Shown piece by piece: positions 5,332 to 50,247 of a stretch of 64,000 nt of DNA (position 1 is the stretch's first letter; every line of letters starts with the position of its first letter). The notes beneath the pieces were generated by a model. The model searched no databases. It worked only from the letters and a program-made list of their open reading frames with translations, and was not told the origin of the DNA. Source of the stretch: Loktanella sp. D2R18 (GTDB taxonomy: Bacteria > Pseudomonadota > Alphaproteobacteria > Rhodobacterales > Rhodobacteraceae); NCBI RefSeq assembly GCF_003318235.1, contig NZ_QOCG01000031.1, positions 1 to 64,000 on the forward strand, read 5' to 3'. The translations under genes were made by a program, and so were the position numbers.

Positions 5332-9566
<4,235 letters not shown>

Positions 9567-9854: not shown

Positions 9855-12800
9855 TCCTCATCCTCCGCATCCAGGAGTTCCATGTTGAGGCCGAGGCCCC
9901 GGACTTCTTTCACGAGCACGTTGAACGACTCTGGGACACCTGCCTCAAAGTTGTCTTCGCCTTTGACGATGCTTTCATAGACTTTCGTCCGGCCAGCAAC
10001 ATCATCGGATTTGACTGTCAACATCTCTTGCAGCGTGTAAGCCGCGCCATATGCTTCGAGCGCCCAGACTTCCATTTCCCCGAAACGCTGACCACCGAAC
10101 TGGGCTTTACCACCCAGCGGCTGTTGCGTGACAAGGCTGTAAGGCCCGGTAGACCGTGCGTGGATCTTGTCGTCGACCAAGTGGTGCAGTTTGAGCAGGT
10201 ATTTCACACCCACTGTTACCTTACGGCTAAACTGTTCACCGGTACGGCCATCAAACAGAACCGATTGACCAGATGTATCAAAACCAGCGCGTGTCAGCGC
10301 ATCGTTCACATCCAGTTCTTTGGCCCCGTCAAAGACAGGTGTCGCAATCGGCACACCGCGGACGACATTGCCAGCAGCTTCGACGATTTGGCCTTCGTCC
10401 ATGCCTTCGATGCCTTCGTCATAGACGTTATCGCCATAGACGATTTTCATCGCATCGCGCACAGGTGTCAGATCGCCAGAGCGACGGTATTCACCAAGCG
10501 CGTCATCAATCTGGATACCCAGACCACGTGCGGCCCAGCCCATGTGACATTCGAGAATCTGACCGACGTTCATCCGTGACGGCACACCCAGCGGGTTCAG
10601 ACAGAAATCAACCGGCGTACCATCGGCAAGGAACGGCATGTCTTCCATCGGGACAACCTTGGAAATAACACCTTTGTTCCCGTGACGACCCGCCATCTTA
10701 TCGCCCGGCTGCAGCTTACGCTTCACTGCAACAAAGACTTTGACCATCTTCATCACACCTGGTGGCAAATCGTCACCACGACGAACTTTTTCGACTTTGT
10801 CTTCGAACCGTGCGTCCATTGCCTTCTTCTGGATTTCGTACTGTTCGTTCAGGGCTTCGACGACCTGAGCGTCAGCTTCATCCTTCAGGGCAACCTGCCA
10901 CCATTGACCACGGCTAAGTTCAGCCAGCGCTTCTTCGGTCACAATCGAATTTGCCTTAAAGCCACGCGGACCTTTGACAGCTTCTTTGCCAATGATCATC
11001 GATTTCAGACGCGCATAGATGTTGCGGTCAAGGATGACCATTTCATCGTCACGGTCACGTGCAAGCCGTTCGACTTCTTCACGCTCAATCTGAAGTGCAC
11101 GTTCGTCTTTTTCCACGCCGTGGCGGTTAAAGACGCGTACTTCTACAACGGTCCCGAAATCGCCCGGTTTCACGCGCAGTGATGTATCACGCACGTCAGA
11201 GGCTTTCTCACCAAAGATGGCGCGCAGAAGCTTTTCTTCTGGTGTCATCGGGCTTTCGCCTTTTGGTGTGATCTTACCAACCAGAATGTCACCCGGCTCT
11301 ACTTCGGCGCCGATGTACACGATGCCAGCCTCGTCGAGGTTACGCAGCGCTTCTTCACCAACGTTCGGAATATCGCGTGTGATTTCTTCTGGCCCAAGCT
11401 TTGTATCACGGGCAGCGACTTCGAATTCTTCGATGTGGATCGAAGTGAAGACGTCATCACGTGTGATACGCTCTGAAATCAGGATCGAATCTTCGTAGTT
11501 GTAGCCGTTCCAAGGCATAAACGCGACGACCACGTTTTTACCCAAAGCCAATTCACCGATATCCGTTGATGGACCATCGGCAATAACTTCGCCTTTCAGA
11601 ACCGTATCACCAACCTTCACCAGCGGACGCTGGTTGATGCAGGTGTTTTGGTTAGAACGTTGGAATTTACGCATGCGGTAAATGTCTACGCCTGCGTCGC
11701 CCAGTTCCAAATCATGCGTCGCACGAATAACGATACGCTGCGCATCAACTTGGTCGATGATACCCGCGCGTTTCGCCATGATCGCCGCACCTGAATCGCG
11801 TGCAACCACTTCTTCGATACCGGTACCCACCAGTGGGGCCTCGGCCTGAAGCAATGGCACCGCCTGACGCATCATGTTCGATCCCATCAGGGCCCGGTTC
11901 GCATCGTCGTTTTCAAGGAATGGGATCAAAGACGCCGCAACAGAGACCAGCTGCTTTGGAGAAACATCGATCAAGTCGACATTTTCACGTGGGGCCAGTG
12001 TATAATCACCGTTCATACGTGTTGAAACAAGTTCGTTATTGAACCCGCCATCTTCATCCAAGTTCGCGTTGGCCTGCGCAACAGTGTGACGCATTTCTTC
12101 GGTCGCAGACATGTATTGAACATCGTCCGTTACCTTACCGTCGACAACCTTGCGATATGGCGTTTCGATAAAGCCGTATTTGTTCACACGGGCAAATGTC
12201 GCCAGTGAGTTGATCAGACCAATGTTCGGCCCTTCGGGCGTTTCAATCGGACACATACGACCGTAGTGGGTTGGGTGAACGTCACGGACTTCAAAGCCAG
12301 CACGTTCACGGGTCAAACCGCCGGGCCCAAGCGCAGAAAGACGACGCTTGTGCGTGACTTCTGACAGCGGGTTAGTTTGGTCCATGAACTGCGACAATTG
12401 GCTAGAGCCAAAGAATTCACGTACAGCCGCAGCCGCAGGTTTCGCGTTGATCAAATCTTGTGGCATCACCGTGTCGATTTCGACAGATGACATACGCTCT
12501 TTGATCGCGCGCTCCATGCGAAGCAGACCAACACGGTATTGGTTTTCCATCAGCTCGCCGACAGAACGCACACGACGGTTGCCGAGGTGGTCAATATCGT
12601 CCACGTCGCCTTTGCCGTCGCGCAGTTCAACCAGCGCTTTGATGCAAGATACGATATCTTCCTTGCGCAGGGTGCGCATGGTGTCTTCGGCATCCAGATC
12701 AAGGCGCATGTTCATTTTTACACGACCAACGGCAGACAGATCGTAGCGCTCTGAATCAAAGAACAGTGTGTCAAACAAGGCTGACGCGGAATCAACTGTC

Positions 12801-35800: not shown

Positions 35801-36478
35801 ATGCAAACACTAGATATGGCGGACATCGCGCTACGCGAGATGAACGCAACCCTGCACGCACAGGCGGAAACCACCAATCAGACCGCTTGGGAAATCGTAA
35901 ATCCGAAAGGCGCACATGCGATCGCATGTGGTTTAGACGCCCCGATCGAGGTCACCGTAAAAGGGTCAACCGGGTACTATTGCGCTGGGATGAACAAGCA
36001 AGCGACGATCAATATCAAAGGCTCTGCGGGACCCGGCGTCGCTGAAAACATGATGAGCGGCACCGTCGTCATTGACGGGGACGCAAGCCAATATGCTGGG
36101 GCGACAGGCCACGGTGGATTGCTGGTGATCAAAGGTAATGCATCATCGCGCTGCGGGATTTCCATGAAAGGCATCAATATTGTCGTGCATGGTAACATTG
36201 GGCACATGTCCGCCTTTATGGCGCAATCTGGCAACCTTGTGGTTTGCGGTGACGCAGGCGACGCGCTGGGCGACAGCCTTTATGAGGCGCGACTATTTGT
36301 ACGCGGGTCGGTCAAATCTCTCGGCGCAGATTGCATCGAAAAAGAGATGCGCCCCGAACACCTCGCGATCCTTGCCGATTTGTTGGAACAGGCAGGCGCG
36401 GACGCCAAACCCGAAGATTTCAAACGCTACGGATCGGCCCGCGAGCTTTACAACTTCAAGATCGACAATGCGTACTAA
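35801..36478 (+). CDS. mgsB: N-methylglutamate synthase subunit B (GXGXG domain)
   Basis: This 225-residue protein is the beta-helical GXGXG domain of glutamate synthase alpha expressed as a separate subunit (IKGSAGPGVAENMMSGTVVI, GATGHGGLLVIKGNASSRCG). It follows mgsA with no gap and precedes mgsC by nine bases. In GltB this domain separates the amidotransferase and FMN parts. Confidence 0.92.
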   Translation: MQTLDMADIALREMNATLHAQAETTNQTAWEIVNPKGAHAIACGLDAPIEVTVKGSTGYYCAGMNKQATINIKGSAGPGVAENMMSGTVVIDGDASQYAGATGHGGLLVIKGNASSRCGISMKGINIVVHGNIGHMSAFMAQSGNLVVCGDAGDALGDSLYEARLFVRGSVKSLGADCIEKEMRPEHLAILADLLEQAGADAKPEDFKRYGSARELYNFKIDNAY

Positions 36479-36487
36479 GGAACAGCC

Positions 36488-37831
36488 ATGACTGACACAT
36501 CAAACGGCGCCCCTTTGACAGCGCCCATTCAATCCGCCACTTTTTCAAACCCCATCAACGCGGAAATTCGCCGCGCGGCGGCGACCGGCATCTATGACAT
36601 TCGCGGCGGCGGCGCAAAACGCAAAGTGCCACATTTCGATGATCTTCTATTTTTAGGGGCGTCGATCTCACGCTATCCTCTCGAAGGGTACCGCGAAAAA
36701 TGCGAAACATCCGTAAGCCTTGGCACGCGTTTTGCCAAGAACCCCATTGAACTCGATATTCCGATCACAATCGCGGGCATGTCCTTTGGGGCTTTGTCAG
36801 GACCCGCAAAAGAGGCGTTGGGACGCGGCGCCACGCTTGCAGGCACATCAACCACCACGGGTGACGGCGGCATGACAAGCGAAGAACGCGGCCATTCCAA
36901 TAAATTGGTCTATCAATATCTTCCGTCGCGTTACGGCATGAACCCCGACGACCTACGCCGCGCCGATGCGATTGAAATCGTTGTTGGCCAAGGCGCGAAA
37001 CCCGGTGGCGGGGGTATGTTGCTTGGTCAAAAGATCAGCGACCGGGTTGCTGAAATGCGCAACCTCCCGAAAGGCATCGACCAACGTTCTGCCTGCCGCC
37101 ACCCGGATTGGACCGGCCCTGATGATCTTGAAATCAAGATCCTTGAATTGCGCGAAATTACCAGCTGGAAGGTCCCGATCTATATCAAAATTGGCGGCGC
37201 ACGCCCTTATTTTGACACGACGTTGGCCGTGAAAGCGGGGGCAGATGTTGTTGTGCTTGATGGGATGCAAGGCGGGACTGCCGCAACCCAAGATGTGTTC
37301 ATCGAAAACGTCGGCCAACCGATTTTGGCCTGCATCCGCGAATCTGTTCGCGCGCTACAAGATCTCGGCTTGCACCGCGAAGTGCAGCTTGTCGTGTCAG
37401 GCGGCATCCGTACCGGCGCGGATGTGGCCAAGGCGATGGCAATGGGCGCTGACGCCGTCGCCATCGGCACCGCGGCCCTGATTGCCTTGGGCGATAACGA
37501 CCCCAAATGGGAAGCAGAGTACAATGCATTAGGCACCACCGCTGGCGCCTATGACGATTGGCACGAAGGGCGCGATCCAGCAGGCATCACCACCCAAGAC
37601 CCCGAACTGATGAAACGGTTCGATCCGATCGAAGGTGGTCGGCGTTTGAGCAACTACCTTAAGGTGATGACGCTTGAAGCCCAGACAATCGCACGCGCCT
37701 GCGGCAAAAGCCACTTGCACAACCTAGAACCCGAAGACCTTTGCGCGCTGACCATGGAAGCTGCCGCAATGGCAAAAATCCCACTTGCTGGCACCGACTG
37801 GTATCCGGGCAAACCGGGTGCTGGCTATTAA
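36488..37831 (+). CDS. mgsC: N-methylglutamate synthase subunit C (FMN domain)
   Basis: This 447-residue protein matches the FMN-binding barrel of glutamate synthase (Glu_synthase). Conserved segments include AGMSFGALSGPAKEALGRGA, the loop GAKPGGGGMLLGQKI, KIGGARPYFDTTLAVKAGAD and LVVSGGIRTGADVAKAMAMG. The 3Fe-4S cysteines of full GltB are not evident. It completes the three-part N-methylglutamate synthase. Confidence 0.92.
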   Translation: MTDTSNGAPLTAPIQSATFSNPINAEIRRAAATGIYDIRGGGAKRKVPHFDDLLFLGASISRYPLEGYREKCETSVSLGTRFAKNPIELDIPITIAGMSFGALSGPAKEALGRGATLAGTSTTTGDGGMTSEERGHSNKLVYQYLPSRYGMNPDDLRRADAIEIVVGQGAKPGGGGMLLGQKISDRVAEMRNLPKGIDQRSACRHPDWTGPDDLEIKILELREITSWKVPIYIKIGGARPYFDTTLAVKAGADVVVLDGMQGGTAATQDVFIENVGQPILACIRESVRALQDLGLHREVQLVVSGGIRTGADVAKAMAMGADAVAIGTAALIALGDNDPKWEAEYNALGTTAGAYDDWHEGRDPAGITTQDPELMKRFDPIEGGRRLSNYLKVMTLEAQTIARACGKSHLHNLEPEDLCALTMEAAAMAKIPLAGTDWYPGKPGAGY

Positions 37832-37838
37832 TTGCGAA

Positions 37839-37873
37839 TAGGGCGCGGCCAATCATGGCACGCGCCCTTCTTT
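37839..37873 (+). other. Hairpin between mgsC and gmaS
   Basis: An 8-bp perfect stem AGGGCGCG / CGCGCCCT with a 13-base loop is followed by TCTTTATAA. It resembles a leaky terminator inside the operon, 27 bases before the gmaS start, and could lower or uncouple gmaS expression. Confidence 0.6.
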
Positions 37874-37899
37874 ATAAAATGACGACAGGGAATAATACG

Positions 37900-39225
37900 A
37901 TGGCAACAGACCTCGCTAAATTTGCCGAAGACAACGGCGTCAAATACTTCATGATTAGTTTCACCGACCTGTTCGGGGGCCAAAGGGCCAAGCTGGTGCC
38001 AGCACGGGCCATCGCAGACATGCAAGAAGACGGTGCCGGGTTCGCGGGGTTCGCCACCTGGCTCGACCTCACCCCTGCACACCCAGACATGCTGGCTGTT
38101 CCAGACCCAGAGGCGGTGATCATCCTGCCTTGGAACCGTGAAATCGCGTGGGTGCCCGCCGATTGCGTCATGGAAGGCGAACCCGTGGCCCAAGCGCCCC
38201 GCAACGTTTTGCGCCGCCTGATTGATGAAGCCGCCGAAGAAGGCATGCGTGTCAAAACTGGCATTGAGGCCGAGTTCTTTTTGCTCACGCCAGATGGCGA
38301 ACAGGTCAGCGACCCCTTCGATACCGCGGCCAAACCTTGTTATGATCAACAAGCCTTTATGCGCCGCCTTGATGTGATCCAAGAGATCAGCGATCACATG
38401 CTGGAACTTGGATGGAACCCCTATCAAAACGACCACGAAGACGCGAACGGTCAGTGGGAAATGAACTGGGATTTCGATGACGCGCTGGCCACGGCTGACA
38501 AGCACAGTTTCTTTAAGTTCATGGTCAAAACCGTTGCCGAAAAACATGGCTACCGCGCGACATTCATGCCCAAACCGGTTGAGGGTCTAACAGGCAACGG
38601 CTGTCACGCGCATATTTCAGTTTGGGATCTGGACGGCAAAACCAACGTCTTTGCGATTGAACCCAACGATAGCAACCAAACAGCTGAACTTGGGCTATCC
38701 GAACAAGGGCGGTATTTCCTGGGCGGCATCATGAAACACGCGAGTGCGCTGCCCGCAATCACCAACCCAACGATCAATAGCTATAAACGTATCAATGCAC
38801 CGCGTACAACATCTGGCGCGACTTGGGCCCCCAACACCGTCACATGGACGGGCAACAACCGCACACACATGGTCCGCGTTCCCGGTCCCGGCCGTTTTGA
38901 ATTGCGGCTGCCCGACGGCGCTGTGAACCCCTATCTTTTGCAGGCGGTCATCATTGCAGCAGGCCTGTCAGGTGTCCGTAGCGAGGCCGATCCGGGCAAA
39001 CGCTATGACATCGACATGTACGCCGAAGGGTTCAAAGTACGTGGGGCACCAAAACTGCCGCTTAACATGCTTGATGCATTGCGTGCCTTTGACAAAGACA
39101 AAGGCCTTAAGGCTGCAATGGGCGCGGAGTTCTCGACATCTTTCATCAAAATGAAGATGCAGGAATGGGATAGTTTCGTAGGTTATTTCAGCCAGTGGGA
39201 AAAACAGAACACATTGGATATCTGA
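37900..39225 (+). CDS. gmaS: Gamma-glutamylmethylamide synthetase
   Basis: The ATG at 37900 (MATDLAKFAEDNGVKYF, AGGG site) gives 441 residues; a longer frame runs back into mgsC. It is a glutamine-synthetase-like ligase of the GlnT group: beta-grasp N-domain with SFTDLFGGQRAKLVPA, catalytic domain with EAEFFLLTP, GNGCHAHISVWD and the ATP/glutamate region RVPGPGRFELRLPDG. It joins methylamine to glutamate using ATP, the first step of the N-methylglutamate route. The tight linkage to mgsABC distinguishes it from ordinary glutamine synthetase. Confidence 0.93.
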   Translation: MATDLAKFAEDNGVKYFMISFTDLFGGQRAKLVPARAIADMQEDGAGFAGFATWLDLTPAHPDMLAVPDPEAVIILPWNREIAWVPADCVMEGEPVAQAPRNVLRRLIDEAAEEGMRVKTGIEAEFFLLTPDGEQVSDPFDTAAKPCYDQQAFMRRLDVIQEISDHMLELGWNPYQNDHEDANGQWEMNWDFDDALATADKHSFFKFMVKTVAEKHGYRATFMPKPVEGLTGNGCHAHISVWDLDGKTNVFAIEPNDSNQTAELGLSEQGRYFLGGIMKHASALPAITNPTINSYKRINAPRTTSGATWAPNTVTWTGNNRTHMVRVPGPGRFELRLPDGAVNPYLLQAVIIAAGLSGVRSEADPGKRYDIDMYAEGFKVRGAPKLPLNMLDALRAFDKDKGLKAAMGAEFSTSFIKMKMQEWDSFVGYFSQWEKQNTLDI

Positions 39226-39246
39226 TTTAATACCATAAACGAAGGT

Positions 39247-39268
39247 GGTTGGCGCATATGCGCCAACC
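39247..39268. repeat. 22-bp perfect palindrome
   Basis: GGTTGGCGCAT and its reverse complement abut with no spacer between the convergent gmaS and 4-TM genes. No T-run is present on either side; it could act as a weak transcription barrier or a protein-binding site. Confidence 0.6.
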
Positions 39269-39274
39269 GCGATC

Positions 39275-39682
39275 CTAGCGCAGCCAACCTCGCGTCCGTG
39301 ATGCGACCGAAAGCCAAAACAAAATAGCCGCCACGATGACCGAGACGCCGGTGCTCAAAATGGCTTCGCTCGCAAGACCGAGCGCCATCACACCGTACAC
39401 AAACGTCGCCAGCGCCCCGACCAAAGCAAGGCCAAGAACCTGCACCGCGACTGCGCGACGCAACAACAACAAGATGCACCCGACAGCGCCGCCAAACACG
39501 GCAACAGCAAAGCTTGCCGTCGCCCACGCAGGCCGCTGCATGACCAAATCGTGATAGCGATCGGGCAATTTCGCTACAAAATCAGCGTCAGTTTGCATGA
39601 TGAAATTCAGGCAGCCCATCAAGCTCCAGATCAACCCCATCACGGCGATCGACCAATAGCTCCACTTTGGTTTTTCCATCAT
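39275..39682 (-). CDS. Small four-segment membrane protein of unknown function
   Basis: This 135-residue protein has four hydrophobic segments (about residues 10-30, 50-72, 80-98, 104-124) joined by short loops; a conserved-looking motif is LMGCLNFIMQTDADF at the end of the first segment. The tail ends SRTRGWLR. I do not recognise a specific family. It is convergent with gmaS and divergent from tmm. Confidence 0.72.
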   Translation of the reverse strand: MMEKPKWSYWSIAVMGLIWSLMGCLNFIMQTDADFVAKLPDRYHDLVMQRPAWATASFAVAVFGGAVGCILLLLRRAVAVQVLGLALVGALATFVYGVMALGLASEAILSTGVSVIVAAILFWLSVASRTRGWLR

Positions 39683-39842
39683 GTGTCCTTTCGTTTCTTT
39701 ACGACCATTAACGCAGCTAAAAAACGTGACCGAGGTCGATTTGCATACATGAACTGCTTAAGTTTTATTCACTCATAAGAATAATTATTGACTTAAGGTA
39801 ATAGTCACGATGCAATCAAGCAAACGAAAAAAGGATTCCCAG

Positions 39843-41177
39843 ATGCCCAAACGTATTGCCATTCTCGGTGCCGGTCCGTCCGGTCTTGCACAGCTTCGCG
39901 CCTTTCAGTCAGCCCAAGAAAAAGGCGCTGAAATCCCTGAAATCGTCTGCTTTGAAAAGCAATCAGACTGGGGTGGTCTATGGAACTACACATGGCGCAC
40001 AGGGTTGGATCAATACGGTGAACCTGTGCACGGCTCTATGTATCGCTATCTTTGGTCAAATGGCCCGAAAGAAGGTCTAGAATTCGCCGATTATTCGTTT
40101 GAAGAACATTTCGGCAAACAAATCGCATCCTATCCCCCCCGCGCCGTGCTGTTCGACTATATTCAAGGGCGCGTACAAAAGGCGGGCGTTCGCGACTGGA
40201 TCCAGTTTGAAACCGCGGTGCGTTGGGTCAAAAAGGTTGGCGACAAATTTCAGGTGACCGTTTGCCACCTGCCCGAAGATCACACCTACACCGAAGAATT
40301 CGACCATGTCATCGTCTGTACCGGTCACTTTAGCACACCAAATGTGCCGGAATTTGACGGTTTTGACTCGTTCAAAGGGCGCGTGTTGCACGCGCATGAC
40401 TTCCGCGATGCAATGGAGTTCGCGGATAAGGATATCCTGATCGTCGGCACATCGTATTCCGCCGAAGACATCGGATCGCAGTGCTGGAAATACGGCGCGA
40501 AATCCATCACGGTCAGCCACCGCACCGCCGCGATGGGGTATGATTGGCCCGACAACTGGGCCGAAGTGCCGCTATTAACCCATATCGACGGCAAAACCGC
40601 CCATTTCAAAGACGGCACCACCAAAGACGTCGATGCTGTGATCTTGTGCACCGGCTACAAGCATCACTTTCCCTTCTTGCCCGACGATCTGCGCCTAAAA
40701 ACCGCCAACCGACTGGCTGCTGCGGATCTCTATAAAGGGGTCACCTACGTGCACGAACCTGCGCTGTTCTACATCGGAATGCAGGATCAATGGTTCACCT
40801 TCAACATGTTCGACGCCCAAGCCTGGTATGTACGCGACGTCATTATGGACCGCATTGCGCTCCCCGATGAAGCGGCGATGAAAGCCGATGTGGATGACCG
40901 CATCGCACGCGAAGATGCTGGCGCAGATGACTATGACGCGATCTGGTATCAGGGCGATTACATCAAAGAACTGACCGCCGACACCGACTATCCGTCCTTC
41001 GACGTCGAAGGCGCGTGCAAAGCATTCAAAGAATGGAAAGGCCACAAAAAGAAAAACATCATGACCTTCCGTGACAACGGTTACAAATCAGTGATCACCG
41101 GCACAATGGCCCCCAAACACCACACCCCCTGGAAAGACGCGCTTGATGATAGTCTAGAGGTGTATTTGCAAAATTAA
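39843..41177 (+). CDS. tmm: Trimethylamine monooxygenase
   Basis: This 444-residue flavin-containing monooxygenase starts [18 protein letters not shown] at 39843, with AAGGATT upstream; an earlier in-frame ATG at 39810 lies in the promoter region. The FAD motif GAGPSG is at residues 8-13, the FMO motif [11 protein letters not shown] near residue 180, the NADPH motif [14 protein letters not shown] near 200, and a [10 protein letters not shown] motif near 280. It oxidises trimethylamine (and related amines) to N-oxide, and its linkage to tdm and dmm fits. A terminator hairpin follows immediately. Confidence 0.92.
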
Positions 41178-41178
41178 G

Positions 41179-41212
41179 GTTTTGGGCTCAAAGGCCGCTT
41201 TGAGCCCAAACC
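41179..41212 (+). terminator. Terminator hairpin after tmm
   Basis: A 13-bp perfect stem, TTTGGGCTCAAAG / CTTTGAGCCCAAA, with a 4-base loop begins four bases after the tmm stop. The T-run is weak, but the stem is long. Confidence 0.75.
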
Positions 41213-41251
41213 TACCTTGACTGGCAAGGACATAACCGATCTGTTCTCCGT

Positions 41252-41608
41252 ATGGACGTATCAGCAATCTTTAAAAAGGACTTTCGCGGCGAACTCGGTG
41301 AGGCCGTTTGGCTCGTTGATACACCAGAAAATAGAAATCGGTTCGAAAAATCGTGTGACCTTGATCCCAACAGCGCTCTATTTTCTGTGAATGGTTTCAA
41401 TACCTTGCAATCTGGGCTGGCCGAAACGGTTTGGAGCATCCATGATCACTATCCCGATTTGGACAAAATTATTGTCATTGGTGTCAAACTCAGTGCGTTG
41501 ATCGCCAAAGAGCTGGACGGCGATTACATTCTTGAGGGAAAAAAGATGGGTTCATTTGCCGCCCAGCGAATGGCACCTAAGTCCCGCCTGTCCGCCGTCT
41601 CTCACTAA
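41252..41608 (+). CDS. Small protein of unknown function downstream of tmm
   Basis: This 118-residue frame has protein-like composition (MDVSAIFKKDFRGELGEAVW, DKIIVIGVKLSALIAKEL) but a weak ribosome-binding site and no recognisable domain, signal or membrane segment. Its last four bases overlap the relic tdm stop on the opposite strand, so its 3' end may have been altered by whatever brought the relic here. Coding status is plausible, not certain. Confidence 0.5.
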   Translation: MDVSAIFKKDFRGELGEAVWLVDTPENRNRFEKSCDLDPNSALFSVNGFNTLQSGLAETVWSIHDHYPDLDKIIVIGVKLSALIAKELDGDYILEGKKMGSFAAQRMAPKSRLSAVSH

Positions 41609-41712
41609 GAGCGCGGGCGTTCTTTCTTTGGATCATAACCCGCCAGATCAGGGCGGATCGCCGTGGGGAAGCGCCTTTGATGCCCGTCCAGCTTGCCGGT
41701 TTCGACATGCGT
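41605..41712 (-). pseudogene. Relic of a second tdm 3' end
   Basis: On the minus strand this stretch translates to a C-terminus almost identical in design to that of tdm: the residues GKLDGHQ, then RP, IRPDLAGYDP, KE, PRS and a TAG stop appear in the same order and frame. By eye about 27 of the last 35 residues match. The frame upstream meets a stop within about seven codons, so no gene remains. It lies about 2.6 kb from the real tdm end in the same orientation, giving an imperfect direct repeat around the two genes between. Confidence 0.82.
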
Positions 41713-41852
41713 TCAAGGTTTTTTTATGGGTTATCGTTGCACAACGGCATCAAGTAGAACAATTTCAAGAAGGAATATGGCCATTTGTACACCCACGTCC
41801 CTGAGCGTGCTATAGTTTTACCATTATTATCTTAGCAGATGGAAACATATTT

Positions 41853-42584
41853 ATGAAACACTTCACAGTCCCCAAAATGAGCATTGCCGCTTGTGCCGCT
41901 TTGCTAATCAGCAGCGCCCCCGCTTTCGCTGGCGGCTTGGGCGATGCGGTCGCCGAACCAGATCCGGTCATGCCGCCTCTTGCTGTCCCTCAGGCGAACA
42001 GCGACTATTACGTATCTGTTTTTGCAGGTGCCAATATGCTGTCGGATATCGACACCGATTATTACGGCTCTGAATATTCCGTGGGATTTGATACCGGGTT
42101 TGTCGCAGGTGTCACCGTTGGTAAAAAGATAAGTGATACGCTCCGCGTTGAGGGTGAATTGTCCTTTGCACGCGCTGCAGCCGCTGACTTTTCCGCTGGG
42201 TATAACGGCTATACTTACGTTGATTCTGACCCGGCCGACGGCGATCTGGATGCAACATATCTTTTGGTCAATCTTTGGTATGATTTCCCGTCGACTGGTC
42301 CAATGGGATACTATGTCGGCGGCGGCCTTGGCGGGGCCAAGGTCGAAGGTGACATTAGCTTCGATGGCGCCTCCTACGGCTATGGACCGGGAGAGACGAA
42401 GCTTGCGGGCCAAATCGGTGCCGGCTTGATGTACGACGTATCACAAACGCTGACTTTAGATGTTGGGTATCGATTTAAATATGTCGGTGACGTCGATTTT
42501 GACGATAACGATGGCAGCGGCGTTTACACAGGTGGCGATGTACAAAGCCACAGCTTGCAAGCCGGGTTGATGTACAACTTCTAG
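41853..42584 (+). CDS. Outer-membrane beta-barrel protein
   Basis: This 243-residue protein begins with a signal peptide (cleavage likely after SSAPAFA near residue 26). The mature part has alternating hydrophobic strands ending in an aromatic residue (HSLQAGLMYNF), as in OmpA-like/opacity-type barrels of eight strands. Glycine and tyrosine-rich turns are frequent. Function is unknown; such proteins can be porins, adhesins or stress proteins. It sits in the insert between tmm and tdm, and a GC-rich hairpin follows. Confidence 0.88.
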   Translation: MKHFTVPKMSIAACAALLISSAPAFAGGLGDAVAEPDPVMPPLAVPQANSDYYVSVFAGANMLSDIDTDYYGSEYSVGFDTGFVAGVTVGKKISDTLRVEGELSFARAAAADFSAGYNGYTYVDSDPADGDLDATYLLVNLWYDFPSTGPMGYYVGGGLGGAKVEGDISFDGASYGYGPGETKLAGQIGAGLMYDVSQTLTLDVGYRFKYVGDVDFDDNDGSGVYTGGDVQSHSLQAGLMYNF

Positions 42585-42603
42585 ACGGCACTCACAAAAA
42601 TTA

Positions 42604-42628
42604 CGGGGTCCGTTTACTGCGGACCCCG
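42604..42628 (+). terminator. Hairpin after the beta-barrel gene
   Basis: A 9-bp perfect stem CGGGGTCCG / CGGACCCCG with a 7-base loop lies 20 bases after the stop. There is no clear T-run, so termination strength is uncertain. Confidence 0.65.
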
Positions 42629-42679
42629 ACCTACATATGATACGATCTGAAGCGATCCATATTGAAGGTTTGCGATAAA

Positions 42680-44293
42680 GTGTCATCTGCACCTCCGACC
42701 AAAGAACACATTCTGCGCACGCTGCAAGTGGGCGTTGACCTTCAGCGTGACGGCAAATTTCTGGAAGCCGAACGCATATACCAATCCGTTCTGCGGGCTG
42801 ACCCGCGACACCCAGATGCGCTCAATCTCATGGGTACCCTGGCCGTTGAAGCAAACGACGTTGACGTTGCATTAGACTATTTTGGAAAAGCGCTGCGGCG
42901 ATCGCCGCGTAACGCTGTTTACCTAAACAATATGGGTAACCTGCTTTTGCGCTTGAAGCGCAATAAAGAAGGGCGCCAGCATTTACTAAAAGCCGTTCAA
43001 GCCCAACCGAATTTTGTTGAGGCGCTATGCAACCTTTCCAAGGCGCATAAGCTAATGCTGAATGGTGTTGAGGCCGAAAAGCTGCTGAGAAAGGCACTCT
43101 CAATTGACGCCGATAGCCTCAAGGCGCGGCTCGGGCTTGCTGATTTGCTGATCGACAATGGAAACTCTGACGGCGCCGCTGTACTGTATGAGGATATTCT
43201 GCGTCATCACCCTGACAGCGTCGAAGCCCTTTCAGGTCTTGCTGCTTCGCGCAAATTCGCGCCAGATGCGCCTGAGATTGACCTCGTTCTTCAACGGATC
43301 GCAATGCCGGATACATCCGATGACGCGTTGGTTCATCTTCACCATGCCGCAGGTAAGATCCTGAACGATCAGCGCCGTTATGATGACGCTATTCAGCATT
43401 TCTCCAAGGCGAAGACATATAGCAAAGGTGCGTTTGATTTAGATCGTCACCGGCAGTTTTATGGGTCGCTGATCGAAACGTTCACGCCAGAATTTTTTGC
43501 TGAAAGGACCGGTTTTGGGAACGATTCTGAACGGCCTGTCTTTATCGTTGGGATGCCACGTTCGGGCACGACTCTGACAGAACAAATTTGCGCAAGCCAT
43601 CCAGATGTCTATGGCGCAGGGGAGCTTTCTGAGCTGCACAAAATTGCACGTTCACTTGGCCATTCTGCCTCTGAACCAGCGGCACTCGCCAAGGCTTTAG
43701 TTACAATGACCAAACGCGATTCTCAAAAATTGGCTGATCGCTATCTCTCTGCTTTGAAACGGCGCGATAGAAAGGCGCTTCACGTTGTAGATAAGATGCC
43801 ACACAACTACGAGTTCCTAGGTCTCATCACGTTGCTGTTTCCGAACGCCAAAATCATCAACTGCAATCGCGATCCGATGGACAACTGTCTGTCGTGTTTT
43901 ATGCATCGCTTCGCTGAAAGCCACGGTTATAACGCAGATCTCGAAACTGTCGGATATTATTACCGCGAGTACAGAAAGCTAATGGATCACTGGCAAGACG
44001 TTTTGCCAAGCCCCATCCTGCTCATGCAGTATGAAGAAACCGTCGCCGATTTGGAAACACGTGCGCGTGCACTTATCGACTTTGTGGCGTTACCTTGGGA
44101 TCCGGCCTGCCTTGCCTTCCATGAAACTGAACGCACAGTCCGAACACCAAGCCGATGGCAAGTCCGCCAACCTATCTACACGACGTCGGTCAAACGCTGG
44201 ACCCGCTATGGCGACGCAGTCGCGCCATTACAATCTGCACTTGGGGACCTGATCGTAGAGGGCGGTGCGAATGAGAACGCTTTGGCCACATAG
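42680..44293 (+). CDS. TPR-repeat sulfotransferase
   Basis: A GTG at 42680 with GAAGG about 11 bases upstream gives 537 residues; a TTG at 42662 is also possible. The N-terminal half (roughly residues 15-230) is tetratricopeptide repeats (YQSVLRADPRHPDALNLMG, LKAVQAQPNFVEALCNLSKA). The C-terminal half has the sulfotransferase 5'-PSB motif VFIVGMPRSGTTLTEQI near residue 290 and a later INCNRDPMDNCLSCF 3'-PB motif. This common marine architecture is linked to sulfation of surface or secreted compounds; acceptor unknown. Its 3' end is 21 bases from the tdm stop, convergent. Confidence 0.9.
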   Translation: MSSAPPTKEHILRTLQVGVDLQRDGKFLEAERIYQSVLRADPRHPDALNLMGTLAVEANDVDVALDYFGKALRRSPRNAVYLNNMGNLLLRLKRNKEGRQHLLKAVQAQPNFVEALCNLSKAHKLMLNGVEAEKLLRKALSIDADSLKARLGLADLLIDNGNSDGAAVLYEDILRHHPDSVEALSGLAASRKFAPDAPEIDLVLQRIAMPDTSDDALVHLHHAAGKILNDQRRYDDAIQHFSKAKTYSKGAFDLDRHRQFYGSLIETFTPEFFAERTGFGNDSERPVFIVGMPRSGTTLTEQICASHPDVYGAGELSELHKIARSLGHSASEPAALAKALVTMTKRDSQKLADRYLSALKRRDRKALHVVDKMPHNYEFLGLITLLFPNAKIINCNRDPMDNCLSCFMHRFAESHGYNADLETVGYYYREYRKLMDHWQDVLPSPILLMQYEETVADLETRARALIDFVALPWDPACLAFHETERTVRTPSRWQVRQPIYTTSVKRWTRYGDAVAPLQSALGDLIVEGGANENALAT

Positions 44294-44314
44294 CTACCGG
44301 CCGCTCTTAACCAC

Positions 44315-46684
44315 CTAAGATCGTGGCTTTTCTTTTTGGGGATCATAACCCGCCAGATCGGGGCGGATCACAGCCGGAAGGCGTTTTTGGTGCCCGTCCA
44401 GCTTGCCGATCTCCACCTCCGTTCCGGCTGCGGCATGGACGACATCGATGCGTGCCATGGCAATGTTTTTGCCCAAAAGCGGCGACCGCATCGACGAAGT
44501 GACTTCACCAATTTGCGCGCGCCCGATATGGATGCAATCCCCATGCCCCACTTCAACTTCGCTACCAATATCAAGACCAACCAGCTTTCTCATCGGGTGT
44601 TCTTTGCGACGGATCAACGCGTCGCGGCCAATGAAATCATCCGGTTTTGATTTGAGAGGAACAGTAAACCCGATGCCCGCTTCAAACGGATCCGTTTGGT
44701 CAGAAAAGTCATAATCCGCAAAAATGAGACCCGCTTCGATCCGTACCATATCCAAGGCTTCTAGCCCCATGGGGCGCAGCCCATATTCTTGCCCAGCGCC
44801 CCAAATCGCATCAAATATCTCTGTGCAATGTTTGGGGTGGCACATGACCTCGTAGCCCAATTCACCCGTGTATCCGGTCCGCGAAATCACAAACGGTGTG
44901 CCTGCCTCATTGCGCAGACGTGCAGGTGTAAACCGGAACCAAGCGAGCTGATCAAATTCGGGGTTATGCGGCGCAGTCCAAACCAAATCACGTAGCAAAT
45001 CACGTGATTTTGGCCCTTGAACCGCGACGTTGTGCAATTGGTCGGTCGAGGATCTGACCAGCACTTTGAGGCCCAGCTTTTCGGCCTGCTCTCGGATCCA
45101 TTCGCCGCCATATTCACTGCCGCCAATCCAACGGAAATTGTCGCGTCCCAGACGAAATACGGTGCCGTCATCAATCATACCCCCGTGTTCGTAACACATC
45201 GCGGTATAGACTACGCCGCCCAACGGCAGCGTTTTCATGTTGCGGGTGAACACATACTGGCACAGCGCTTCGGCGTCTGGCCCTGTGATTTCAAACTTGC
45301 GCAGCGGCGACAGATCCATGATTGCCACATCTTGGCGGCAGGCATGATATTCCGCGATTGGACCAGCGTCAGCAAAACAATTGGGCAACCAATAGCCATT
45401 GTATTCGACAAAATTACGTGTGTGTTTTGCGAAACATTCATGGAATCCGGTTTGTTTGGTCATCTTAGGCTCCGAATTGGGCGTCGCGCGTGTCGCGATG
45501 GATTTTTGAAAGGTTTCTTTGCCAGAATAAGTCCGCACATGGATATCCGTTGGGTTCCAACCGTTGGCAGCGGTCGTGTCATCTGGGCAAGCACTGCTGA
45601 CGCAAACAATGTCCGTTAATGCGCGCAACAGCACATAGTCCCCCGGCCGTGACCAAGGTTCGTCCGCGTACATGACCCCGTGATCATCGATGCGCGTGTT
45701 GAAAAAAAAGTTGATAGCCATCCACCCCGGCCGCCCTGTGACGCCATATTCAGCCAGTGCGGCATTGAAATTGTCCGAACAGTTCGCGTGGCCAGGATAG
45801 CCGATGTCATCATAGTATTTGGAGGCACAAGCCATCGCAAAGGCATCGTGGCGCCCGCAGGTGTCTTGGATAACCTCCACGAGCGGCACCATTTCCTGAT
45901 CGTAGTATTTCGCATGTAGGCCCGGCATCGGGTAGGCATGGCCCATCAAGGTGCGCGTGGTCGTCACATCCAACGCGTGCTCAATTCCCTCGTCTAGCTT
46001 ACGCGCGCTGAAACATTCGAAATCTGTGCACTGCCTACCATCGACATCAAGAATTTGGATGTAGTCGCCCGCCTTTACAAAATAGGCCTCGGCGGTTTGG
46101 GTATAGACCCGAATATCTTGCAGTGGATCGGCAAGCGGCGTGGGTAGCGCAAACCCCACACGGGGTTTTATGACCGCCCGTTTTATGGTGACAGTCAACG
46201 GTGTTGCCGTGTTCTGTGTTTCAAAATCCATTATGCCGCCGGGTGCTGCGATCACGACGCAACCATCGCGTTGCGCAGTAAAGCTAGCTTCGGTCTTGGC
46301 GGGCGTTGTAGCCTCAAACAGATGCACGGCATGCGCGCTGGCGACATCGATGTTGCGCGCGTTCAGCCCCATCCGAAGTCCGCGCAAAGAACGGTCGCTA
46401 CTTTCCAACAATGACTGCAGGCCCAACGCGGGCCCTTGCGCTGTCGCGCCGACAATGCTCGGGTCAACCACGCCCTTTGGGTCACAGACCAACAGCTCGC
46501 AGGGTTGACCGCCTTCGTCGTTAATTACTGTGATCTTATCTCCGGCAGAGATCGGCACAAGAACCGCACCGCAGGCTTCGACCACATACCGTTCGGTCCC
46601 CGCAGGCAGCGAGAAAACGCGCGGCTCGTAGATCGCGCTCGGCTTTGGAGGGCCGGGGCGTATATTCAAAATTTCGTCCCGCAT
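44315..46684 (-). CDS. tdm: Trimethylamine N-oxide demethylase
   Basis: Starting at MRDEILNIRPGPPKPS (46684; another Met precedes it) gives 789 residues; the frame is open further upstream but through promoter sequence. The N-terminal half has two DUF1989-type regions with Cys-rich motifs (VDGRQCTDFECF, DTCGRHDAF, HANCSDNFN), which bind zinc in the known enzyme. The C-terminal half (about residues 410-789) is a GcvT-like tetrahydrofolate domain (SRTGYTGELGYEV, GLEALDMVRIEAGL). It splits TMAO to dimethylamine and formaldehyde and couples the formaldehyde to tetrahydrofolate. Confidence 0.93.
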   Translation of the reverse strand: MRDEILNIRPGPPKPSAIYEPRVFSLPAGTERYVVEACGAVLVPISAGDKITVINDEGGQPCELLVCDPKGVVDPSIVGATAQGPALGLQSLLESSDRSLRGLRMGLNARNIDVASAHAVHLFEATTPAKTEASFTAQRDGCVVIAAPGGIMDFETQNTATPLTVTIKRAVIKPRVGFALPTPLADPLQDIRVYTQTAEAYFVKAGDYIQILDVDGRQCTDFECFSARKLDEGIEHALDVTTTRTLMGHAYPMPGLHAKYYDQEMVPLVEVIQDTCGRHDAFAMACASKYYDDIGYPGHANCSDNFNAALAEYGVTGRPGWMAINFFFNTRIDDHGVMYADEPWSRPGDYVLLRALTDIVCVSSACPDDTTAANGWNPTDIHVRTYSGKETFQKSIATRATPNSEPKMTKQTGFHECFAKHTRNFVEYNGYWLPNCFADAGPIAEYHACRQDVAIMDLSPLRKFEITGPDAEALCQYVFTRNMKTLPLGGVVYTAMCYEHGGMIDDGTVFRLGRDNFRWIGGSEYGGEWIREQAEKLGLKVLVRSSTDQLHNVAVQGPKSRDLLRDLVWTAPHNPEFDQLAWFRFTPARLRNEAGTPFVISRTGYTGELGYEVMCHPKHCTEIFDAIWGAGQEYGLRPMGLEALDMVRIEAGLIFADYDFSDQTDPFEAGIGFTVPLKSKPDDFIGRDALIRRKEHPMRKLVGLDIGSEVEVGHGDCIHIGRAQIGEVTSSMRSPLLGKNIAMARIDVVHAAAGTEVEIGKLDGHQKRLPAVIRPDLAGYDPQKEKPRS

Positions 46685-46845
46685 CATCGCCCCGTCTGTT
46701 GCATGAATGGAATATTTATTTAATATGATGAATATAATTGAATGTGACGCCTCGCAAACACAATCGACAGGGAACATGTGAATAATTACATCACGTTTTT
46801 GAAAACCTGCGCGCTGTGGTCCCTTTCCGCTCCGGTAAACACCTG

Positions 46846-47688
46846 ATGTCACTCGTTTTAGGTTTAATCGCAGCCGCCTGTTGGGGGCTTCATGATTTTT
46901 GCGTCCGCATCATCAGTCAAAACGCCCCTGTAAGCGCCTGCTTGTTTGCCGTCATGGTGTTTGGACTGATCTTTCAGGCCGGGCTTTTGGTCACAACTGG
47001 AAGCTATGCGCGCATCCCTGCGGCGAGCGTCGGACCATTAATCTGCGCTGGCGCTTCTTTTGCGATTGCTAATTGCGGGCTGTACATCGCCTTTCAGCGC
47101 GGCCCAGTCTGGCTAGCCGCGCCGCTAGTTGCTTGTTTCAGTGTCTTTTCTGTCGGCATCGCGTTGATCGGTGGCACCGCCGTTTCATTAAAACAATGGG
47201 GTGCAATTGCGATGATCTTTGGCGGCATCACGATGATCGCTACCCTCGCGGACCGGGGTGACGCGCAAGACAATGGAAAATTTTTGACAATTGTGAGTGC
47301 GTTGATCGCGGCGGCCGGGTTTTCAAGCACGTTTTACTTTGGGCAAACCGCCACGGAAATGACCAACGGGCTCGTGTCTGCCGTGGTCACGCGCATCGTT
47401 GCCATTGGCGTTTTCCTTACCGGAATTCTCGCCTTGCGTCTGCCAGTGTGGCCTAAATCAGACGCGCTCGGTGTGCTTATAATTATGGGGATCCTTGACG
47501 GTATTGCCATCCTGTCCATCATGATTGCAGGCAATCACCCGCACCCCGAATACGCCGCGGTCACAACGGCGATGTACGGGTTGCCAACCATATGGCTAGC
47601 CGCATTTTTCCTAAAAGAACGTATCAGCCCGATGCAATGGTGGGGCTGCGTCATCGCATTTTTGGGTGTCGGTTATCTCGCATTATGA
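46846..47688 (+). CDS. EamA/DMT-family transporter next to tdm
   Basis: Starting at MSLVLGLIAAACWGLHDF (46846) gives 280 residues; a GTG 30 bases upstream is also in frame. Ten hydrophobic segments in two EamA repeats are seen, with the second ending AAFFLKERISPMQWWG. It is divergent from tdm with a 160-base AT-rich intergenic region, so it may share regulation with tdm. A role in moving TMAO, dimethylamine or another cluster metabolite is inference only. Confidence 0.85.
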   Translation: MSLVLGLIAAACWGLHDFCVRIISQNAPVSACLFAVMVFGLIFQAGLLVTTGSYARIPAASVGPLICAGASFAIANCGLYIAFQRGPVWLAAPLVACFSVFSVGIALIGGTAVSLKQWGAIAMIFGGITMIATLADRGDAQDNGKFLTIVSALIAAAGFSSTFYFGQTATEMTNGLVSAVVTRIVAIGVFLTGILALRLPVWPKSDALGVLIIMGILDGIAILSIMIAGNHPHPEYAAVTTAMYGLPTIWLAAFFLKERISPMQWWGCVIAFLGVGYLAL

Positions 47689-47731
47689 CGCCCTTGATAG
47701 TCTTGTTTCATGGGCTCTTTTGTGCCCGCAC

Positions 47732-47760
47732 AAAAAAGGCCCCGATGCTTTCGCACCGGG
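47732..47760 (-). terminator. Intrinsic terminator with GAAA tetraloop
   Basis: On the minus strand CCCGGTGC, loop GAAA, GCATCGGG is followed by GCC and six Ts. It lies about 30 bases downstream of the small secreted protein gene. Confidence 0.88.
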
Positions 47761-47790
47761 ACAGCTTGGGACAGGTCGAGGGCAGGTTCT

Positions 47791-48183
47791 TTAGCGGCGC
47801 GTTGATGCACCAGTTGGATAACGAGGTTCATCCGTCGGGCGATGGGATGCTTCGCGACCATCGTCGTCATAGTCGCCACGATTGTGAATTTCTTCCGGCT
47901 CTGAAAGGATTTCAAAGCGCAAGCTATAGGTTTCATCTTCGCGTTGGGTGGCAAAGATACCTTTGATGTCGATTCCGCCAACAGAGTTCCCGAAGACTTG
48001 GTCGCAATCATCGAGACCGCTTGTTTGGCTACAATCTTGGTCGGGGAAAGTTTCCGAACACCAATTGATGACCGCTTGGTAACATGCGCCCAAGGTTGTA
48101 AATTCGGCGTGCGCTTGGATAGGCGCAAAAGTTGCTGCAGTTAGTATCGTACCGATCGAAAATGTTTTGATAAAATTAGGCAT
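47791..48183 (-). CDS. Small secreted protein of unknown function
   Basis: This 130-residue protein has a signal peptide (MPNFIKTFSIGTILTAATFA, cleavage after AHA near residue 26). The mature part has four cysteines in two pairs (ACYQAVINWCSETF and DCSQTSGLDDCDQVF), suited to two disulfides, and a charged, disordered C-terminus (HNRGDYDDDGREASHR). I do not recognise the family. It has its own terminator. The upstream 195 bases (48184-48378) are AT-rich with no gene seen. Confidence 0.75.
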   Translation of the reverse strand: MPNFIKTFSIGTILTAATFAPIQAHAEFTTLGACYQAVINWCSETFPDQDCSQTSGLDDCDQVFGNSVGGIDIKGIFATQREDETYSLRFEILSEPEEIHNRGDYDDDGREASHRPTDEPRYPTGASTRR

Positions 48184-48378
48184 AATATAGATCCAGTTTT
48201 TTATTTTGTAGCAACAGTTACCTGCGCTACAGTTATAGGTCGCTGGAGGTCTGAAAATGGTTCAAAGAAAATACATGTTTTTTCGGAAAAATATAAACCA
48301 TTGATATTAATAATTTTTATGGAATGCTTGATGCCGTGGCGCCCCCGATCCTGATTATATAGGGCCGGGGGCAACCGA

Positions 48379-49488
48379 TTAATCAGTGAGTTCGCTCATG
48401 TGAACTAAGCGATGTTCGCGGATCGATATTTGCGCAGCCATGCCCATCAGCACGGCGATTTTTCCATCGTTAAGCGATACATCAGGCTGGTCGCGCTGCC
48501 CACGCACCAATTCAAGGAACCCTTTGTGTTGATAATAGGTCGATCCATTGTGATCGCCTGCGTCAAGCAGGGTTGGATCAACGGGGATATCTTTGTGGGC
48601 CGGCCCTTTGGGGGTGCGGGGACTGACGATCAGTTGCGGCACGGGCGCGTCACCCAAATGGTCCGGCCAAAAACGGCCGGGTCCCGGCACCAAGGCTTCG
48701 ACCTTACCGTTTGGACCAACCGCCGAGATTTCCTCTTGGTACTGCGCGCCTTCGGCAAACATGCAGAGTTCCAGCAAGGCGCGGCTCCCGTTTGCAAAAT
48801 CCACAATGACATAGCCATTGTCCAAAATATCCGGCTGTTCCCCATTATACCGTTCGTCAATGTGGTTCGCATCTTGGCCGCCAGAGGCCATGACCCGGAT
48901 CGGTTCGGATTTCAAAACCAACCGCATTAGATCAAAGAAGTGACAGCATTTTTCGACAAAGGTCCCCCCTGAATAGCGATCAAAACGATTCCAATCGCCG
49001 ACTTTTTCCAAGAACGGAAAGCGGTGTTCGCGGATTGTCAGCATTTTGATCCCGCCTGTGGCGTCATCCGCGCAATTCAAAAGCGCGGTGATGGGAGGCA
49101 TATAGCGGTATTCCATCGCGACCCAAACCGGCGATGGGTATGTATTTGCGAATGTGTTGATACGTTCAATTTGGTCAATGTCGGTAAATAGCGGTTTTTC
49201 AACCAACACCGGCAGGTGCCGTTTCGCGGCCAGCATTTCAAGCTGTTCGACGTGCCGAAAGTTCGGGCTAACAATCAGAATGCAATCCAATTCAGGCATG
49301 TCCAACAACGCGTCAATACTAGCAGCCATTTGGGCGTCAGGCGCGATTGATTGGGCGATTTTTGCCATTTCCTCGTCAGGTTCAAAGACCCCGGCAACGC
49401 GCGCATTTTCCAACAACGCGATGTTGTGCATGTGTTCATGGCCCATCATGCCGCAACCGATGATGCCGTAGTTTGTGGTGTTTGACAT
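48379..49488 (-). CDS. Gfo/Idh/MocA-family protein, candidate NAD-dependent sulfoquinovosidase
   Basis: This 369-residue protein starts MSNTTNYGIIGCGMMGHEHMH, a Rossmann NAD-binding motif (GxGxxG), and contains VLVEKPLFTDIDQIERI (the EKP motif) and a C-terminal substrate domain with GGTFVEKCCHFFDLMR, typical of the family. In several bacteria NAD-dependent sulfoquinovosidases (GH188, SqgA) belong to this fold and occur in sulfoquinovose clusters. No GH31 sulfoquinovosidase is seen here, so this gene is the best candidate for the glycoside-opening step. That role is inferred from context; an ordinary sugar dehydrogenase cannot be excluded. It follows the GntR gene by nine bases. Confidence 0.8.
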   Translation of the reverse strand: MSNTTNYGIIGCGMMGHEHMHNIALLENARVAGVFEPDEEMAKIAQSIAPDAQMAASIDALLDMPELDCILIVSPNFRHVEQLEMLAAKRHLPVLVEKPLFTDIDQIERINTFANTYPSPVWVAMEYRYMPPITALLNCADDATGGIKMLTIREHRFPFLEKVGDWNRFDRYSGGTFVEKCCHFFDLMRLVLKSEPIRVMASGGQDANHIDERYNGEQPDILDNGYVIVDFANGSRALLELCMFAEGAQYQEEISAVGPNGKVEALVPGPGRFWPDHLGDAPVPQLIVSPRTPKGPAHKDIPVDPTLLDAGDHNGSTYYQHKGFLELVRGQRDQPDVSLNDGKIAVLMGMAAQISIREHRLVHMSELTD

Positions 49489-49497
49489 ATTTCCTCC

Positions 49498-50247
49498 CTA
49501 ACGCAGGCGCTGCACATAGCGGGCGCGCTGCGGGTCAAACCAAGTTCTTGAAAACTCAACCGAACCATGTTGTTCGGTATGGCTTATCCGCTCAATAAAC
49601 CCGACGGTTTCGCCGGGTTCTGGCGTGAATTCTGTGGGGGCCCAATCGGGGACCTTTCCGATGGAAACATAGTCTTCGGCGTGTGTGATCCAAAACCCAA
49701 GTCGCATTTTGTAATAGCGGTACAGCGAATCAGATAGGTCTGCGGGCACGATTTCCCCCGCGCAACAGTCGAGCCAGATTTCTTCGACAGCGATAGGTTC
49801 GTGATTCAAAAACCGCAACCGTTTGATCCGCGTGCCCCGTTCCGACTGCCCGAATTGCGGCAGATCGTCGGGCTTTTTCAATTCATCAACAGTCAAAACT
49901 TTCGCCGTTGGCAGACCACCACCACGCAGCAATTCCAGCCGGAACATCGAATAGACGCTGGCGACGTCAGGGGTCTTTCGGACATAGTTTCCCGACCCTT
50001 GAATACTTTCGATCAGGCCGTTTTTTTCAAGTATTGCGAGCGCTTTGCGCAAGGTCCGTACGGTCGTATCATGCTGTTTTGCAAGCGTGCGCTCTGGCGG
50101 CAACCGTTCCCCGTCCAGCAATTGGCCAGACGCGATTTCGCGGATCAAGACCTCACTGATCTGCACATAGAGCGGCAGTGCAGATGCTGTTTCGCTTTTA
50201 ACATACATCGCGGGGAGGGTTGCTTTCGAAAATAATTGATACACCAT
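49498..50247 (-). CDS. GntR/HutC-family regulator
   Basis: This protein of up to 249 residues has a GntR winged helix at about residues 28-95 (LIREIASGQLLDGERLPPER, TTVRTLRKALAILEKNGLIE, GSGNYV) and a UTRA ligand-binding domain beyond, ending in SVEFSRTWFDPQRARYV. An alternative start at 50208 would remove 13 residues and place the FNR-type box upstream of the gene. It is divergent from the monooxygenase gene and co-directional with the Gfo/Idh/MocA gene, and probably controls the sulfoquinovose locus. Confidence 0.9.
   Translation of the reverse strand: MVYQLFSKATLPAMYVKSETASALPLYVQISEVLIREIASGQLLDGERLPPERTLAKQHDTTVRTLRKALAILEKNGLIESIQGSGNYVRKTPDVASVYSMFRLELLRGGGLPTAKVLTVDELKKPDDLPQFGQSERGTRIKRLRFLNHEPIAVEEIWLDCCAGEIVPADLSDSLYRYYKMRLGFWITHAEDYVSIGKVPDWAPTEFTPEPGETVGFIERISHTEQHGSVEFSRTWFDPQRARYVQRLR

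Follow-up and report, generated by a model that had tools for sequence, protein, structure and literature searches.

The DNA between the genes for trimethylamine monooxygenase (tmm) and trimethylamine N-oxide demethylase (tdm) of Loktanella sp. D2R18 contains a relic that probably stems from another tdm allele of the same genus, whose 3′ tail stayed behind when a block of two genes joined at the end of tdm. Relic and block are real, they are older than the split between this species and its relative G461, and the event that they record is of a known kind. Two divergent tdm tails lie in direct repeat around the block, the differences between them are mainly of the type found in coding sequence, the arrangement is shared with G461, and the block occurs elsewhere in a further relative, G423. 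The window (the whole stretch analyzed, 64,000 nucleotides) belongs to the genome under study, denoted W or G000; the other G numbers are genomes of relatives, and L numbers are loci, L160 being one of W itself. The features of the locus, in window positions, are the following:

39843-41177, plus strand: tmm, trimethylamine monooxygenase (NCBIfam equivalog NF058570, 829 bits, cut-off 675)
41178-41604, no strand: segment from the tmm stop to the relic, without similarity to the same interval of G461
41252-41608, plus strand: open reading frame of 118 aa, absent from the first-pass annotation of the relic, its end overlapping the stop of the relic
41605-41714, minus strand: relic, probably the 3′ end of another, divergent tdm (DNA 79% identical to the tail of tdm; codon-position differences 5/4/14)
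41605-41622, minus strand: last 18 bases of the relic, where W and G461 carry different tdm tails; the putative crossover lies at or just inside them
41853-42584, plus strand: outer-membrane beta-barrel gene of the block (PF13505 OMP_b-brl, E 6e-12)
42662-44293, plus strand: TPR-sulfotransferase gene of the block, start codon uncertain (PF13469 Sulfotransfer_3, E 8.8e-45, plus TPR families)
44315-46687, minus strand: tdm, trimethylamine N-oxide demethylase, intact (NCBIfam equivalog NF053776, 1191 bits, cut-off 1100)
44315-44424, minus strand: 3′ tail of the intact tdm, the other arm of the direct repeat, matching the relic

A search of the genome against itself aligned the relic with the tail of tdm (41605-41714 and 44315-44424, both on the minus strand) over 110 bases at 79% identity (E 7.2e-21), and this is the sole direct repeat of more than 20 bases within 41150-44460. 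Relic and tail have their frame and stop in common and, counting back from that stop, 28 of the 36 final codons agree with the stop included, that is, 27 of 35 residues. The first-pass annotation, which had described a stretch with the frame, stop and C-terminal residues of tdm and about 27 of 35 residues matching, was therefore accurate, and so was its statement that no gene lies upstream: a stop in the relic's frame stands immediately upstream of the matching codons (slightly further upstream in G461), no gene runs into the relic, and the similarity to tdm tapers off at about 41714. The barrel gene and the TPR-sulfotransferase gene are bracketed by the repeat, between the relic and the intact tdm. 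Chance similarity was rejected on the E value (7e-21) and on the finding of the relic in G461 as well, and an assembly artefact is unlikely because this second genome has the relic too.

The distribution of the arrangement was followed among relatives in the genus and in the family. In the genus set of 56 genomes, W included, tdm was found at the cut-off used in 14, and the surroundings of the other 13 were mapped (G394 and G465 lie on short contigs, the sequence of G465 reaching no more than 686 bases past tdm, and in G403 some of the tmm-tdm interval reads N). G461, whose tdm is 98% identical to that of W, is the only one of these 13 with the block, which is placed and ordered as in W; its relic has a frame broken by a 2-base insertion, and its repeat amounts to 79% over 113 bases. 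Together with 80 further loci, the 13 genomes gave 93 tdm loci with 85 distinct tdm, 11 of the 93 having less than 3 kb downstream. When each locus was searched with its own tdm tail, a second tail was present in G461 only; all other second matches in the 93 loci, whether of tdm or of tmm tails, measured 16-34 bases. The stretches examined around the 80 loci contained neither of the two block genes, and, as far as sequence reaches, this non-homologous insert adjoins its homologous anchor gene, tdm, in W and G461 only. G423 carries the block as 78% identical DNA among quite different neighbours, and gave no tdm match at the cut-off used. Since G461 shares relic and block, the event predates the separation of the two species, which upholds the earlier opinion that it was not a very recent one. 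Comparison of the tmm-tdm interval among relatives, as had been proposed, thus found block and relic in G461 and neither in the other tdm loci examined; no intact gene other than tdm covers the position of the relic in these loci, and the sole relative with the order tmm, barrel, TPR-sulfotransferase, tdm also carries the relic. As a separate observation, W and G461 are 98-100% identical at 43400-44300, against 85-97% in most other segments of this stretch, which may reflect recent exchange within the gene for the TPR-sulfotransferase; a small number of further segments, some of them in tmm, are equally identical.

The place occupied by the block has a history of its own in the family. The genes tmm and tdm converge in 58 of 86 loci, where they are a median of about 1.1 kb apart (two records being counted twice); in the other 28, tmm is not within the sequence examined or is not convergent. 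The convergent intervals already contain other genes, most often a globin gene or genes for small secreted-looking proteins, and so give no support, in the form in which it was stated, to the notion of an older, close tmm-tdm pair split by the block. A globin-family gene is found in 29 of the 58 intervals (27 of 56 distinct ones), with Bac_globin (PF01152) in the one member tested, while L003 and L113 have purU here, and L004 a kinase-like and a hydrolase-like gene (names given by eye). From this variety among relatives it follows that the block occupies a place that was re-filled several times, and it stands where they have globin genes or genes for small secreted-looking proteins. With respect to the globin itself, an example from the family is the Bac_globin gene at L017:10729-11151, adjoining tdm, and the start of the globin gene lies within 20 bases of the end of tdm in 19 of the 26 cases measured. 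Searching G000, G461, G414, G423 and G394 with one family globin gave no match (no positive control was run alongside), and no paper joining trimethylamine demethylase with truncated hemoglobin in marine bacteria was found; a globin next to tdm could have a role in TMAO breakdown. On the other side of tmm, between it and a glutamine-synthetase-like gene, an ORF of 135 aa on the opposite strand (39275-39682) is present in the same place in a number of relatives at 40-68%, and in G461 at 96%.

Evidence on the origin of the relic comes from the nature of its differences. A functionless, decaying duplicate is expected to change about evenly across the three codon positions. The 23 differences between the relic and the intact tail are distributed as 5/4/14 over positions 1/2/3, an excess at the third position (14 of 23, binomial p 0.006), and, for comparison, intact tdm tails that are 76-82% identical (274 pairs) average 3.4/2.3/17.4. 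This excess argues that much of the divergence arose in a working gene, with some decay since, so that the relic would have diverged largely as a functional tdm and not as a decaying duplicate of the tdm of W. Its first- and second-position changes (9 of 23) are above the average of 5.7 for the intact pairs, indicating that part of the divergence is decay, and decay also pulls the relic outward in the tree of tails. Four residues of the relic do not occur at the corresponding positions of 94 tdm ends, a set that includes W and G461 and is partly out of register. In the tree, made from 84 distinct tails and the W relic, ungapped from the stop over 108 bases (some distant tails being out of register), the relic falls in a clade with W, G461, L113, L003 and L004 with a support of 0.92, and outside the tails of these five with a support of only 0.75, which is weak and comes from 108 bases. 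The codon positions (5/4/14) and, more weakly, the tree thus point to a diverged allele at the anchor and not to a self-copy, and the relic tail appears to derive from a tdm close to the genus. Trees built from 24 loci give the complete tdm and tmm genes of W identical nearest neighbours, G461 and then L004 and L113 (L021 joins L003 in the tmm tree only, not in the tdm tree), and therefore no foreign tdm body is visible. This agreement leans towards the relic as the foreign copy, but the 108 bases of the tail tree are too few to decide the matter.

The block itself offers little sign of a mobile element. No transposase or integrase family was found among its genes, no tRNA lies within 36000-50000 and no inverted repeats stand at its ends. 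An insertion sequence, an integrase-driven island or a tRNA-linked island was rejected as a candidate, no such gene or site having been found at the block: the insert holds the OMP barrel and the TPR-sulfotransferase and no integrase gene (earlier loss being possible), and the repeats, at 79% over 110 bases in W and 79% over 113 in G461, are not near-identical, as the attachment repeats of such an island would be. Nothing linking the block to amine use was found, and the stretch upstream of the barrel is not common to W and G423. The barrel gene lies directly upstream of the TPR-sulfotransferase in W, G461, G423 and G414 (with identity down to 43% and 46%); pairs of this kind are located at L163:6870-10853, at 41853-44293 of the window and at L112:7951-10378. 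The barrels have many tyrosines beside acidic residues, as judged by eye, and the TPR-sulfotransferase might modify the neighbouring barrel proteins. In G414, three barrel genes adjoin a related TPR-sulfotransferase, and at the equivalent site, marked by the same long gene as a neighbour, G000, G461 and G415 have a paralogue of the TPR-sulfotransferase (both by eye); the G414 site hints at where such a block may originate, and not at its function.

The scar is best fitted by homology-facilitated illegitimate recombination, that is, by an insertion or displacement anchored by homology at the 3′ end of tdm. A piece of DNA from a congener would pair by homology with the end of tdm on one side and would be joined without homology on the other, in such a way that the block would come to separate an intact tdm from the last 36 or so codons of one allele, which would be left facing tmm. 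Short linear DNA taken up by transformation or delivered by gene transfer agents would supply such pieces. Here we infer, as parts of the best explanation, how the recombination proceeded, in what form the DNA came in and which allele was the newcomer; among the loci examined, none was found that could represent a donor, with tdm followed by the TPR-sulfotransferase and the barrel and without the relic. The first-pass annotation had likewise proposed entry by recombination at the 3′ end of tdm from a relative with a variant tdm; the divergence of the relic supports this proposal, in which the relic, rather than the intact tdm, may be the incoming part.

Other histories would produce a similar outcome. 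A circular DNA that carried the block and a tdm tail, and integrated by a single crossover in that tail, would yield precisely what is seen, namely an intact gene and, beyond an insert, a directly repeated 3′ fragment, and the last codons of the G461 relic do resemble its own tdm tail, as a crossover within the tail could produce. However, the block genes include no replication, integrase or plasmid family, and a distant-mode plasmid search matched 43 records, none of them covering 80% of the query, the best 20 of the 43 being matches to tdm tails only; a circular intermediate is thus considered unlikely. The visible instability of the interval, with purU in L003 and L113, the kinase-like and hydrolase-like genes in L004 and the differing small ORFs of W and G461, would suit two separate events, the tail stemming from an earlier replacement of tdm and the block arriving in between by an unrelated illegitimate recombination. 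This history needs an extra step, and relic and block are found together in W and G461 and neither of them alone in the tdm loci examined, which makes it quite unlikely.

The alternative that the earlier annotation had put forward, a tandem duplication of tdm within the lineage, after which the block took the place of most of the second copy, has the merit of simplicity and also produces a direct repeat. It is disfavoured by the concentration of the differences at third positions, unlike neutral decay, by the position of the relic outside the tails of W, G461, L113, L003 and L004 (even if with a support of only 0.75), and by the finding of a second tdm tail in none of the other tdm loci examined except G461 (11 of the 93 with less than 3 kb downstream), and we regard it as very unlikely.

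The DNA between tmm and the relic was exchanged again at a later time. W and G461 are 94% identical up to the end of tmm and 93% identical again from 41622 onward, and have nothing in common from the tmm stop to the last 18 or so bases of the relic. In these last 18 bases the two relics resemble two different tdm tails, and between tmm and the relic W has the 118-aa ORF and G461 a different small ORF, neither stretch finding a match in the other DNA examined. From this lack of similarity, the stretch was exchanged in one of the genomes after the species split, and the simplest account would be an exchange bounded by two crossovers, one near the tmm stop and the other within the relic or at its end. 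The 118-aa ORF matched no family of Pfam, NCBIfam or PHROGs at the cut-offs applied and was found in none of the 55 other genus genomes; its product has one distant homologue (50%), in one of the 393 other family genomes searched and at another site. A donor with the order tmm, 118-aa ORF, tdm was rejected, as the site of this sole homologue contains no tdm across the 3.3 kb examined.

A second scar was encountered at purU. In L160 (G000 contig C14), purU (7661-8545) is followed by a class-V aminotransferase gene and a TauE permease gene, beyond which, on the same strand, lies a 3′ fragment of purU (10840-11099, 73% DNA identity) whose differences from purU over codon positions 1/2/3 are 9/11/46 (p 2e-9). 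A gene, two inserted genes and a divergent 3′ fragment make up the same architecture as that of the tdm relic. When this region was used as a query, the matches of G461, G414 and G423 were confined to purU, apart from 175 bases at the opposite extremity of the query in G423, and G394, G420 and G468 gave no match. A survey for 3′ fragments returned two in 494 kb of the W genome, both reached by a lead, and no further one in the 400 kb taken without a lead, so that genome-wide recurrence was not seen there; 435 kb of G414 yielded none, and the other loci, 1.42 Mb in all, yielded the G461 copy of the tdm relic and a folD fragment in L070. The latter (L070:2568-2809) is broken and divergent, and immediately follows an intact folD. 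The other rows of the survey (8 in the W genome, 1 in G414 and 5 elsewhere) were set aside, from coordinates only, as apparent paralogues, reciprocal or opposite-strand rows, or broken neighbours. The survey suggests that 3′ tails of this sort are rare. It is conceivable, though rather unlikely, that the 3′ ends of one-carbon genes (tdm, purU and perhaps folD) would be repeated docking points at which congeneric DNA adds accessory genes and leaves tails; were this true, metabolic genes of these marine bacteria would keep array-like records of exchange, as toxin-immunity arrays do.

Judged by titles, no paper about this tmm-tdm locus was found, and passages of PMC13390433 on tdm regulation have no bearing on the origin of the relic. 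The locus provides a checkable case in which, away from toxin loci and with no mobile element in sight, a small block of genes came to lie between core genes and the tail of the anchor gene remained as a marker of its entry; if such tails were common, one-sided exchanges could be counted in environmental genomes. Some islands insert at the 3′ end of a gene, which they restore in doing so. The tdm scar is like them in that an insert separates an intact gene from a directly repeated 3′ fragment of that gene, and unlike them in that the block has no integrase family and the two tails are only 79% identical. Small variable segments of dimorphic type, replaced between backbone genes, are described for E. 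coli and other species in PMC2884548, where homology-assisted illegitimate recombination is offered as an explanation. The stretch described here is likewise a small one replaced between backbone genes, whereas the repeats flanking those segments are mostly shorter than 30 bp and here they consist of 110 bp of a divergent gene tail. A further parallel is found in the type VI secretion system (T6SS) of Vibrio cholerae, whose effector genes, according to Kirchberger et al. (2017, PMC5361080), are displaced sequentially: a newcomer with one homologous end enters beside the conserved part of the gene and the older material is shifted downstream, one of the shifted pieces being the 3′ end of an effector gene, in a process that the authors suggest to be akin to homology-facilitated illegitimate recombination. 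The tdm case differs in its metabolic anchor gene, in a cargo other than an effector-immunity pair and in having a single relic instead of an array, but both systems have in common the one homologous end and the 3′ end of a gene left as a leftover.
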